A stretch of DNA of 43,464 nucleotides from Clostridiales bacterium. GTDB taxonomy: Bacteria; Bacillota_E; Sulfobacillia; Sulfobacillales; JAIMBI01. Location: assembly GCA_027318915.1 (NCBI GenBank), contig DAHVOH010000023.1:1-43464 (forward strand). Direction: 5' to 3'. Position numbers and translations under genes: made by a program. Positions within the stretch are counted from its first letter, which is position 1; every line of letters begins with the position of its first letter. The notes under the pieces were generated by a model. It had not been told where the DNA came from. It ran no database searches and saw nothing but the letters and a program-made list of their open reading frames with translations. This document shows positions 11,918 to 14,071 of the stretch, piece by piece.

Positions 11918-12581
11918 GTGCAGCAGGAGGTGACGCCCCTGCGTGAGCGGGTGCAGTATGTGTGCCAGGTCTGCGGAACCTCCAGTCCGCGTTGGATGGG
12001 GCGCTGTCCCGGATGTCAGAGCTTCAACACGATGGTGGAGGAGGCTCCGGCGGCGTCGGTGCCCAGCCACCGGGCGGGATCGCCGGCCGCTCCGGTCCGA
12101 CTGGCCGAGGTGGCGGGCGGGGGGCCGGATCGGCTCTCCAGCGGCTTGGCCGCGGTGGACCGGGTGCTGGGCGGCGGAGTGGTGCCCGGTGCCCTGATCC
12201 TGCTGGGTGGGGATCCGGGCATCGGCAAATCGACGCTGATGTTGCAAGTGGCGACGTTGATGAGCCGCGACGGGCCGGTGCTGTATGCCACCGCCGAGGA
12301 ATCGGCGCAGCAGACGCGCCTTCGGGCGGAACGCCTGCCCACGGCGTCCACCGATCTGTATCTGTTGGAAGGGACGGATCTGACGGCTGTGGAAGCGGCC
12401 ATAGCCGGGCGTCGCTGGCGGCTGGTGGTCGTGGACTCGCTGCAAACCGTGAGCGATCCGGAGTTGGAGTCGGCCCCCGGGAGCGTCGGTCAAGTGCGAG
12501 CGGTGGCGGCGCGCATCATGCGGGTCGCCAAGGCGTCCGACACTCCCGTGTTTCTGATCGGGCATGTGAACAAGGAAGGGT
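11918..12581 (+). CDS. radA: DNA repair protein RadA, 5' exon
   Basis: N-terminal half of RadA, a RecA-like branch-migration ATPase. A C4 zinc finger (CQVCG at residues 16-20, CPGC at 30-33) is followed by the ATPase core with Walker A GGDPGIGKST near residue 100, and VVVDSLQT. The match runs to GHVNKEGS, then breaks. If read on without splicing, the frame ends at a TAG (12614-12616), giving a 232-residue truncated protein. The exon ends at T12581, where a group I intron begins. Start choice is uncertain: GTG 11918, GTG 11930 and CTG 11939 are in frame. AGGAGG at 11925-11930 would best serve CTG 11939 or a start nearby. Spliced RadA would be about 460 residues, the family's usual length. Confidence 0.9.
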
Positions 12582-13352
12582 CGAAGCGGCCCCGCGCGGT
12601 CGGCAACGCCGCGTAGTGACCGGGCTGTATGCATGAAACACCGAGAGCCGGGCGCGAGAGCCCCCGGCAGCGGTCAACGTGCAGGAAACGGGGGTAACCT
12701 TGGATCCTCAGAGACAATACGCCCGGCTCCCCGATATCTCCCTTTGGGCGGCCGCCGCCAAGGCGGCGCGCCGGCAGGGGCACCGTCTCGGCAGGGAGCC
12801 CCGCCTGGACTGGATCCGGTTGGCCCAAGGATGGGCAGTGCGGGACCTGGATCCCCGCTTTCTTCCGACCGAGCCCCTGAGTGTCGTGTTGGACAGCGGC
12901 GGCGGGCGCATCATGCTGACTCCAGCGCCCGTCGGCGGCACCGCGGGCGATTGGCGCTGGCCCGTCATCGGTCTTCGGTGGCAGGCGGGTCCGGCATTAT
13001 CCGGGGTGGCGGGAGCCGACGGGCCGCAGATCGAGTGCCACGTCGAGTTGGCGCGGTGCATGGGTCGGCGTGGGTGGCGGACGCTGGGACGGCTGTCCCG
13101 CCTGGCGGTGGTTCCCTCCGAATGGAGGGTGGCGCGGGTGGCTCAGGCGGTGGACGTGGTGGCGATGCTGGCCCGTATGCCGGATGACATGGTCCCGGAT
13201 GCGCGCGACTGGCCGACGCTCGCCCGTCTGTACCGCCACCGGGGCCAAGCCCTGCCGGGCCCGGCACTTCAACGGCCGTATGCGTTCTTGGAGCGGCGAG
13301 AGGGTCGCTGGGCATGGCCGGAGCCTATCGGGGATGAAGACAGTGTCCATGG
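12582..13352 (+). ncRNA. Group I self-splicing intron in radA
   Basis: The 771-bp insert folds into a group I core. P1: 12578-12583 with 12587-12592, with a U.G pair at the splice site. P10: 3' exon CGCT 13353-13356 with AGCG 12585-12588, the same guide strand. P2: CGCGG 12595-12599 with CCGCG 12609-12613. P3: GCCGGGCG 12647-12654 with CGCCCGGC 12720-12727. P4: 12660-12666 with 12689-12695. P5: 12667-12672 with 12678-12682. P7: G12711, bulged A12712, GACA 12713-12716 with TGTCC 13344-13348. P8: CCCCGATA 12729-12736 with TATCGGGG 13326-13333. P9.0 is 2 bp and P9 is absent. The 5' exon ends in U and the intron ends in G13352. The R-like (CAGAGACAATACG) and S-like (AAGACAGTGTCC) segments resemble small bacterial introns such as that of Azoarcus. 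P6 is unresolved. Splicing joins GGG-T and CG-CTC in frame. Confidence 0.9.
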
Positions 13353-13473
13353 CGCTCGCCGGTCCCCGGGTGGTGGAACATCTGGTGGATGTGGTGCTGA
13401 TGTTCGAGGGGGACCGGCAGCACTTGTTTCGCATGCTGCGGGGAATCAAGAACCGCTACGGGCCGACCAGTGA
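12700..13473 (+). CDS. Intron-encoded ORF of unknown family
   Basis: An ORF fills the loop of intron helix P8. The proposed TTG start at 12700 has GGGGG 5 bp upstream; GTG 12679 is also in frame. No stop occurs before 13473, so the frame crosses P8', P7', the 3' splice site and 121 bp of the radA exon out of phase with RadA. The sequence looks like real protein (LPDISLWAAAAKAARRQG..., LDWIRLAQGWAVRDLDPRF...). Position suggests a homing endonuclease, but I see no LAGLIDADG, GIY-YIG, HNH or His-Cys motif and no convincing PD-(D/E)XK. It may be a divergent, degenerate or novel endonuclease, or unrelated cargo. The true C-terminus probably lies before about 13325. Confidence 0.55.
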   Translation: MDPQRQYARLPDISLWAAAAKAARRQGHRLGREPRLDWIRLAQGWAVRDLDPRFLPTEPLSVVLDSGGGRIMLTPAPVGGTAGDWRWPVIGLRWQAGPALSGVAGADGPQIECHVELARCMGRRGWRTLGRLSRLAVVPSEWRVARVAQAVDVVAMLARMPDDMVPDARDWPTLARLYRHRGQALPGPALQRPYAFLERREGRWAWPEPIGDEDSVHGARRSPGGGTSGGCGADVRGGPAALVSHAAGNQEPLRADQ

Positions 13474-14071
13474 GTTGGGACTGTTCCACATGGCCCAGGC
13501 GGGGCTGGTGGCGGTTCCGGATCCGAGTCGCGCGTTGCTGGCCGAGCGCCCCCAAGGCGCTCCCGGATCCGTCGTGGCGGCCGTGCTGGAAGGCAGCCGG
13601 CCCATGCTGGTGGAGGTGCAGGCGTTGGTGGCCCGTGCGGTCGGTCTGCCGCGCCGGGTGGTGACGGGCATCGACGCGCACCAAGCAGCGCTGGTTCTGG
13701 CGGTGCTGGAGCGCTACGGGCGCCAGCGGCTCTATGACCGGGACGTATACATCAAGGTCACGGGCGGAGTCACCGTCGAGGACCCGGCCGTCGACTTGGC
13801 GGTCGCCGCCGCGGTCGTCTCGAGCCTCACCGGTCGACCTGTGGCGGATGACTGGGTCATTGTCGGCGAGGTGGGGCTCAGCGGGGAGATTCGGACGGCT
13901 CCGCGGATGGAAGACCGCCTGCGCGAAGCCGCGCAATTGGGCCTGCAGCGCGCGCTCACCCCGCCGGTGGAAGGCGGTGGGCGCATTCAGGTGCACGGCG
14001 TGCGGCGCATCGAAGCGGCGCTGCAAGCCCTGGGTCTGCCGTCCAAGCCCGCGGCGGACAATACTCTCTGA
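13353..14071 (+). CDS. radA: DNA repair protein RadA, 3' exon
   Basis: C-terminal half of RadA in the same frame as the 5' exon. Codons at the junction read G-S-LAGPRVVEHLVD. It holds the RadA-specific motif KNRYG (family KNRFG) and the C-terminal Lon-like domain with VKVTGGVTV-type strands (YIKVTGGVTVEDPAVDLAVA) and GEVGLSGEIR. Without splicing no good start precedes it. The Met in TCC-ATG-GCG at 13349 is intron-derived. The strong conservation of both halves argues against decay. A terminator follows at 14137. Confidence 0.92.

Follow-up and report, generated by a model that had tools for sequence, protein, structure and literature searches.

In its available text, PMC3984707 describes bacterial group I introns as limited in distribution, largely selfish, and located mostly in RNA genes, and the bacterial protein-gene hosts that it names are flagellin, recA, nrdE, and nrdF (recA, nrdE, and nrdF in Bacillus and nrdE in cyanobacteria). 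We analyzed a contig stretch of 43,464 nucleotides (nt) from a Clostridiales bacterium, here called the window, in which the DNA-repair gene radA (RadA/Sms) is interrupted at positions 12582-13352 by an insert that is, judged from its sequence, a group I intron. All feature coordinates are forward-strand positions of the window, and the features described lie on that strand. Like the bacterial and phage introns of protein genes covered by the same text, the radA intron has its core in a conserved protein gene and an in-frame stop codon after exon 1 (PMC3984707). The kind of element is known; what is new in comparison with those introns is the host gene (radA, and cheY in two relatives), the absence of a P9 stem, an open reading frame (ORF) of no known family, and apparently steady inheritance with the host gene. 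The original prediction, made from the window alone, had named recA and nrdE, but not radA, as known bacterial hosts, and among the titles and abstract beginnings of the open-access literature we likewise found no report of a group I intron in radA or cheY or of an intron in Sulfobacillus.

In the td intron of phage T4, the ORF overlaps the ribozyme core and encodes a GIY-YIG endonuclease, whereas I-Ssp6803I and I-Bth0305I are PD-(D/E)XK homing endonucleases. The radA intron resembles the td type in having an ORF that appears to start in the ribozyme core, but the start is in P6a and the protein is a different one, without a known family. With I-Ssp6803I and I-Bth0305I this protein may share a fold at the class level, the likeness being weak, but we found no sequence match and no conserved D...(D/E)xK motif. 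Archaeal RadA is a RecA/Rad51 protein and not the bacterial RadA/Sms. The RadA of Pyrococcus horikoshii contains an intein according to the available text of PMC8987985. There, too, a gene of this name carries an element removed by splicing, though at the protein level. The overlap of an intron ORF with the core is stated as a principle in the available text of PMC3984707.

Interruption of radA and the intron fold

The NCBIfam model TIGR00416 matches the two parts of RadA separately, exon 1 (11918-12581, with the GTG start at 11918 given in the ORF list) over model positions 4-226 (E 9e-69) and exon 2 (13353-14071) over positions 227-446 (E 2.5e-74), with the model broken at 226/227. The interrupted codon is that of the serine in RadA GHVNKEG-S-LAGPR. 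A scan with exon 2 of genome contigs gave 543 loci, of which we examined the best 80. In the eight closest (L001-L008, metagenome-assembled genomes of Bacillota), the same codon is split by 678-805 bp, and in the remaining 72 there is no insert and a single residue links the two exon-encoded parts. The class of one relative, which includes Sulfobacillus, contributed 25 further radA places; together with the window there are 32 complete introns of 678-817 nt, and two others (L128 and L135) are incomplete and stand outside this set. The limits of the 771-nt window intron, which begins with C and ends with G (omega-G, 13352), agree with the inserts at the same site in relatives, with covariation, and with a covariance model from which the window was left out.

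The radA frame is closed in the window by a TAG directly after P2 (12614-12616), the original prediction having noted several stops within the 771-bp interruption. All 32 introns have such a stop, either at intron nt 18 (27 introns; TAA in 12, TAG in 9, TGA in 6) or at nt 33 (5 introns). The window's two exons remain in the same frame across the insert (771 = 3 x 257), but this is a coincidence, because the 32 lengths are spread over all remainders on division by three (0 in 8, 1 in 14, and 2 in 10).

Exon 1 ends in GGGT in all 32 intron hosts. The 30 intronless genes examined from the class all lack GGGT at this place, and it is present in one of all 102 intronless genes. In the window, this exon GGGU (12578-12581) pairs with GCCC (12589-12592) to form P1 (12578-12592), with a U.G pair at the splice site; both P1 and this U.G pair are present in all 30 aligned introns. 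Exon 1 terminates in U, and the intron in G, in 32 of 32. The adjoining guide strand AGCG (12585-12588) pairs with exon 2 CGCU (13353-13356) as P10, of which three pairs form in 29-30 of the 30 introns and the fourth in nine. P2 follows as a hairpin (12595-12613) with a bulged U at 12600 and a GCAA loop (12603-12606), the L2 tetraloop being GCAA in 13, GTAA in 11, and GAAA in 8 of the 32. P3 consists of CCGGGC (12620-12625) and GCCCGG (12721-12726), and P4 of TGCATG (12630-12635) and CGTGCA (12678-12683). The top of P5 (12652-12663) has one covarying pair and a GAGA tetraloop (GAGA in 28 introns, GCAA in 3, GTAA in 1). P6 (12684-12686 with 12705-12707) and P6a (12689-12693 with 12698-12702) together span 12684-12707, and the likely TTG start of the intron ORF lies within them. 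P7 is formed by G-A(bulge)-GACAA (12711-12717) and GTGTCC (13343-13348, 4 nt before the intron end), and P8 by TCCCCGATA (12728-12736) and TATCGGGGA (13326-13334).

The original prediction had drawn P1, P10, P4, P7 with its bulged A and G-C pair, P8, the exon-terminal U, and the intron-terminal G, and these were all found as written. Its helix lengths were partly right: P8 has 9 bp in the window, within the 8-9 bp given, and P3 has 6 bp and not 8.

Thirty of the 32 introns were aligned structurally with the ORF removed, L122 and L133 being dropped as near-copies. The helices drawn (P1, P2, P3, P4, the top of P5, P6/P6a, P7, P8, and P10) comprise 54 pairs and 1615 cells. Pairing occurs in 93.1% of these cells, compared with 85.8% with shuffled partners and 24-45% when slid by 1-3 columns. 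Both sides change in 22 of the 54 pairs, and the covariation score is 0.255 (0.116 when shuffled). In 500 shuffles these observed values were never reached, although relatedness alone can account for part of this. Base pairs are swapped freely among relatives in P2 (both-side change in 7 of 9 pairs), P6a (4 of 8, counted with P6), and P8 (5 of 8 counted pairs). The P3-P7 pseudoknot is present with P4-P6 between its strands in fixed order, and both-side changes occur in P3, P4, P6a, and P7. P3 is paired in 100% of cells despite UA/CG and GC/AU swaps (2 of 6 pairs), P4 in 100%, P6 in 97.5%, and P7 in 90%. The guanosine site is recognizable in P7 from G-C pairs on either side of the bulged A in 30 of 30 introns; double changes in this helix occur only in L134. 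These covarying pairs and the occurrence of the insert at one site in the eight closest of the best 80 loci, with none in the other 72, exclude chance, which the original prediction had judged a very unlikely explanation.

Some pairs weigh against this fold. The outer P7 pair and the innermost of the counted P8 pairs are each broken in 18 of the 30 introns, and the fourth P10 pair in 21. In the window, the fifth P7 pair (A12717 with G13343) is a mismatch. We found no P9 stem in any of the 32 introns, because just 4-7 nt lie between P7 and the intron end. As this stem after P7 is absent, we have assigned the intron to none of the canonical subgroups IA-IE.

We built two covariance models, R1 from all 32 introns (P2 to P3, without the 3' part) and R2 from 25, leaving out the window, its nearest kin (L001, L002, and L111), and the near-copies L116, L122, and L133. 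R2 gives the window 121.8 bits (E 8.6e-28, the E-values being rough) and has no match in ten intronless radA loci, so that the intron passes the test against chance that had been proposed with the prediction. Another proposed check, a search with the Rfam group I model, came out negative: the only Rfam match in the window is to 5S rRNA, and RF00028 (gathering threshold 50 bits) stayed without a match there when E values up to 1 were allowed. Nor did Rfam recognize a group I intron in L001-L008 (E up to 10) or in the related introns L144 and L151-L154 described below. A blind search with R1 of 199 genomes from the phylum of an Acidobacteria-titled genome found three places (L156, L157, and L158), one in 23S rRNA with an ORF and two beside a tRNA gene. 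RF00028 matches all three of these introns, with 64.2, 36.2, and 29.3 bits, one of them above the gathering threshold, unlike the radA introns, which it misses. Because RF00028 recognizes three introns that were found blind by a model trained on radA introns, its failure with the latter looks like a limit of the Rfam model. A comparable case is given in the available text of PMC6125680, in which no significant RF00028 hit was kept for archaea and two subtype models gave 95. R1 had no match in a sample of 299 Pseudomonadota genomes, a result of little weight without a known positive there. A single weak R1 match in a Lactobacillales genome (G541:C42:20177-20342, E 1.1e-4) was also observed.

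Distribution and inheritance

The original prediction had not noticed the intron ORF, the absence of P9, the spread over two bacterial classes, or the vertical inheritance. The class that includes Sulfobacillus was represented by 154 genomes, 106 of which have a RadA match at 1e-30. R1 matches 34 of the 154, once each, and all but one of these matches (L144, in genome G092) are in radA; for two of the 33 genomes with a radA intron, one exon only was read. Among 398 genomes of the phylum, six matched R1, three of them new (G215, G253, and G474). These are three of the 15 genomes of a second class; their radA is interrupted by an intron in this same position, and the intron ORF is related. The phylum of G537 (398 genomes, largely those already scanned) gave five matches and none that were new. 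In the second class, the radA site is split in L151, L152, and L153, the 3' side of L153 being masked. The intron proteins of L151 and L152 have an ATG start behind a perfect Shine-Dalgarno (SD) sequence, and by eye we read P7 in this class as GACCAT/ATGGTC.

The trees of RadA and of the intron protein have 23 of 29 splits in common over the 32 introns, with no strong conflict, which supports the view that the intron and its protein were inherited vertically with the host gene. The RadA proteins closest to that of the window, from G095 (76% identical) and G096 (74%), are uninterrupted. In a quick RadA tree they form the sister group of the window (Shimodaira-Hasegawa-like approximate likelihood ratio support 99, with a warning of long branches from the tool), and the sites in these sisters (L081 and L082) are empty. 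Because of this sister position, G095 and G096 would most simply have lost the intron. It appears that an invading element has become a permanent part of a housekeeping gene. In a distant radA copy of the intron, L134 from genome G050, two of the P7 pairs are exchanged and the usual start position lacks a start codon.

Related introns were observed in other genes. In two genomes with a radA intron, cheY is interrupted by a further group I intron that lacks both an ORF and P9. It is 162 nt long in L155 (1507-1668) and 174 nt in L154 (1483-1656), and the gene stands downstream of fliY and upstream of a fliO-like gene. Their P1, P10, and P7 were read by eye, and our models match them; exon 2 encodes a response regulator in L155 and has an in-frame stop in L154, where FliY is upstream. 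The intron of L144 (2417-2545, reverse strand) has an apparent P9 stem after P7 and interrupts a gene with a weak PHROG match to a tail fibre (E 0.0055). Its host is possibly a phage tail gene, and an intron of this type may have been a phage source of the radA intron. A DNA search with the insert found no match in plasmids and phages. A 17-base core motif was present in four stretches of viral contigs, which lack an R1 match and were taken as chance, and a longer core pattern gave 0 matches in viral contigs.

The intron-encoded protein

The intron ORF is located in loop L8 and is open in 32 of 32 introns. In the window, the conserved part of the protein is encoded by 12700-13350, with TTG 12700 as the likely start and GTG 12679 as an alternative. 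The reading frame as a whole (12679-13473) continues into exon 2 in another frame and ends at TGA 13471-13473. The ratio of nonsynonymous to synonymous substitution rates (dN/dS) is 0.09-0.46 in 10 of 12 pairs of relatives, the other two being saturated, and on this measure the protein is under purifying selection. Protein matches to the ORF profile include ones named Sulfobacillus acidophilus, Sulfobacillus harzensis, and Thermaerobacter sp.

The ORF proteins scanned belong to no known family. Pfam (one scan covering ten members) gave nothing below E 0.015, and all of its matches were in single members; no LAGLIDADG, HNH, or GIY-YIG domain was found in the ORF proteins scanned by Pfam or, for five of them, by NCBIfam. 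A PDB sequence search with a ten-row profile had a best E of 0.21. The AlphaFold2 model of the protein has a predicted local distance difference test score of 87 and a predicted template modelling score of 0.83, and Foldseek searches with it of the PDB and of viral models had a best E of 0.38. In a second structure search, nine of the ten best matches are, judged by their titles, proteins of the PD-(D/E)XK fold, and the resemblance is weak. No columns corresponding to a conserved D...(D/E)xK are found in 33 sequences, and between residues 48 and 169 no column has half or more acidic residues.

The protein could be a working homing endonuclease of an unrecognized family in an intron that is still mobile. 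Group I introns commonly contain ORFs of this kind according to the available text of PMC3984707, intronless sister alleles exist, and the introns of G050 and the G215 class stand on separate RadA branches, as transfer could explain. This reading is opposed by the agreement of the RadA and protein trees, by the shortage of conserved acidic residues in 48-169, and by the Pfam scans of ORF proteins, in which no nuclease family was recognized, and we consider it unlikely. More likely, the protein is now a splicing helper.

Proposed splicing and its consequences

We consider it highly probable that the insert is a self-splicing group I intron in the RadA serine codon, with the translation and folding steps outlined here and a maturase as its protein. 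According to this prediction, the intron cuts itself out of the radA transcript and ligates its flanking exons, which would allow RadA to be made. U12581 would pair with the guide in P1 beside the guanosine pocket of P7, an exogenous guanosine would attack after U12581, and, with exon 2 kept in place by P10, the freed GGGU would attack after G13352. Ribosomes that run past exon 1 would halt within 35 nt, so that the core is spared; in-frame stops after exon 1 are mentioned as a possible aid to intron folding in the available text of PMC3984707. Because the ORF starts in or by P6a, with an SD-like word there in 21 of the 32 introns, folding and ORF translation should compete. In the window, which is without a clear SD sequence, initiation at TTG 12700 inside P6a would make translation and the folded core mutually exclusive. 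The protein would act as a splicing cofactor (maturase) that is inherited with the intron and lacks a conserved nuclease motif. Its ancestor may have been a PD-(D/E)XK homing endonuclease that later decayed, and the protein may replace the missing P9.

A more far-reaching version of this scheme is offered tentatively, as one that we lean somewhat against. In it, an entire bacterial lineage domesticated a P9-less intron whose ribozyme depends on the protein that the intron encodes. This maturase would be a former PD-(D/E)XK endonuclease, now dead, with its start locked within the core. A switch between folding and translation would then set the level of RadA, and intron and protein would have been passed on together from a time earlier than the divergence of the Sulfobacillus-like genomes.

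Two other explanations concern splicing itself. The intron could be a fossil that no longer splices, in a radA that is a pseudogene or whose halves are made apart; P9 is absent, and splicing is predicted here from sequence. We regard this as very improbable, given that the core helices stay paired through double changes, that GGG-T is retained in 32 of 32 hosts, and that both RadA halves still match TIGR00416 strongly. Removal of the insert as an intein, as a group II intron, or by ribosome bypassing, to which the in-frame length of the window insert might point, can practically be dismissed in view of the radA-frame stops in 32 of 32 introns, lengths that are not a multiple of three in 24 of 32, the covarying group I core, and the lack of an Rfam group II match. 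An intein in particular would have to be translated in frame with both exons, across those stops, and a group II intron would be expected to show domain V or a reverse transcriptase, for which there was no Rfam match and no Pfam match in the ORF, respectively. The interpretation of the insert as a group I intron is supported.

The standard Rfam model misses introns of this kind, and radA in these genomes may be misread as two genes. By contrast with the limited distribution and largely selfish character described for bacterial group I introns, the radA intron has remained in a single position of a housekeeping gene across deep divergence, and its protein has stayed intact; two sister genomes appear to have lost the intron. 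The cheY relatives of 162 and 174 nt raise the question of a minimal natural ribozyme without P9. The radA intron itself opens the questions of what retains such an intron for good and by what path an endonuclease could turn into a maturase.
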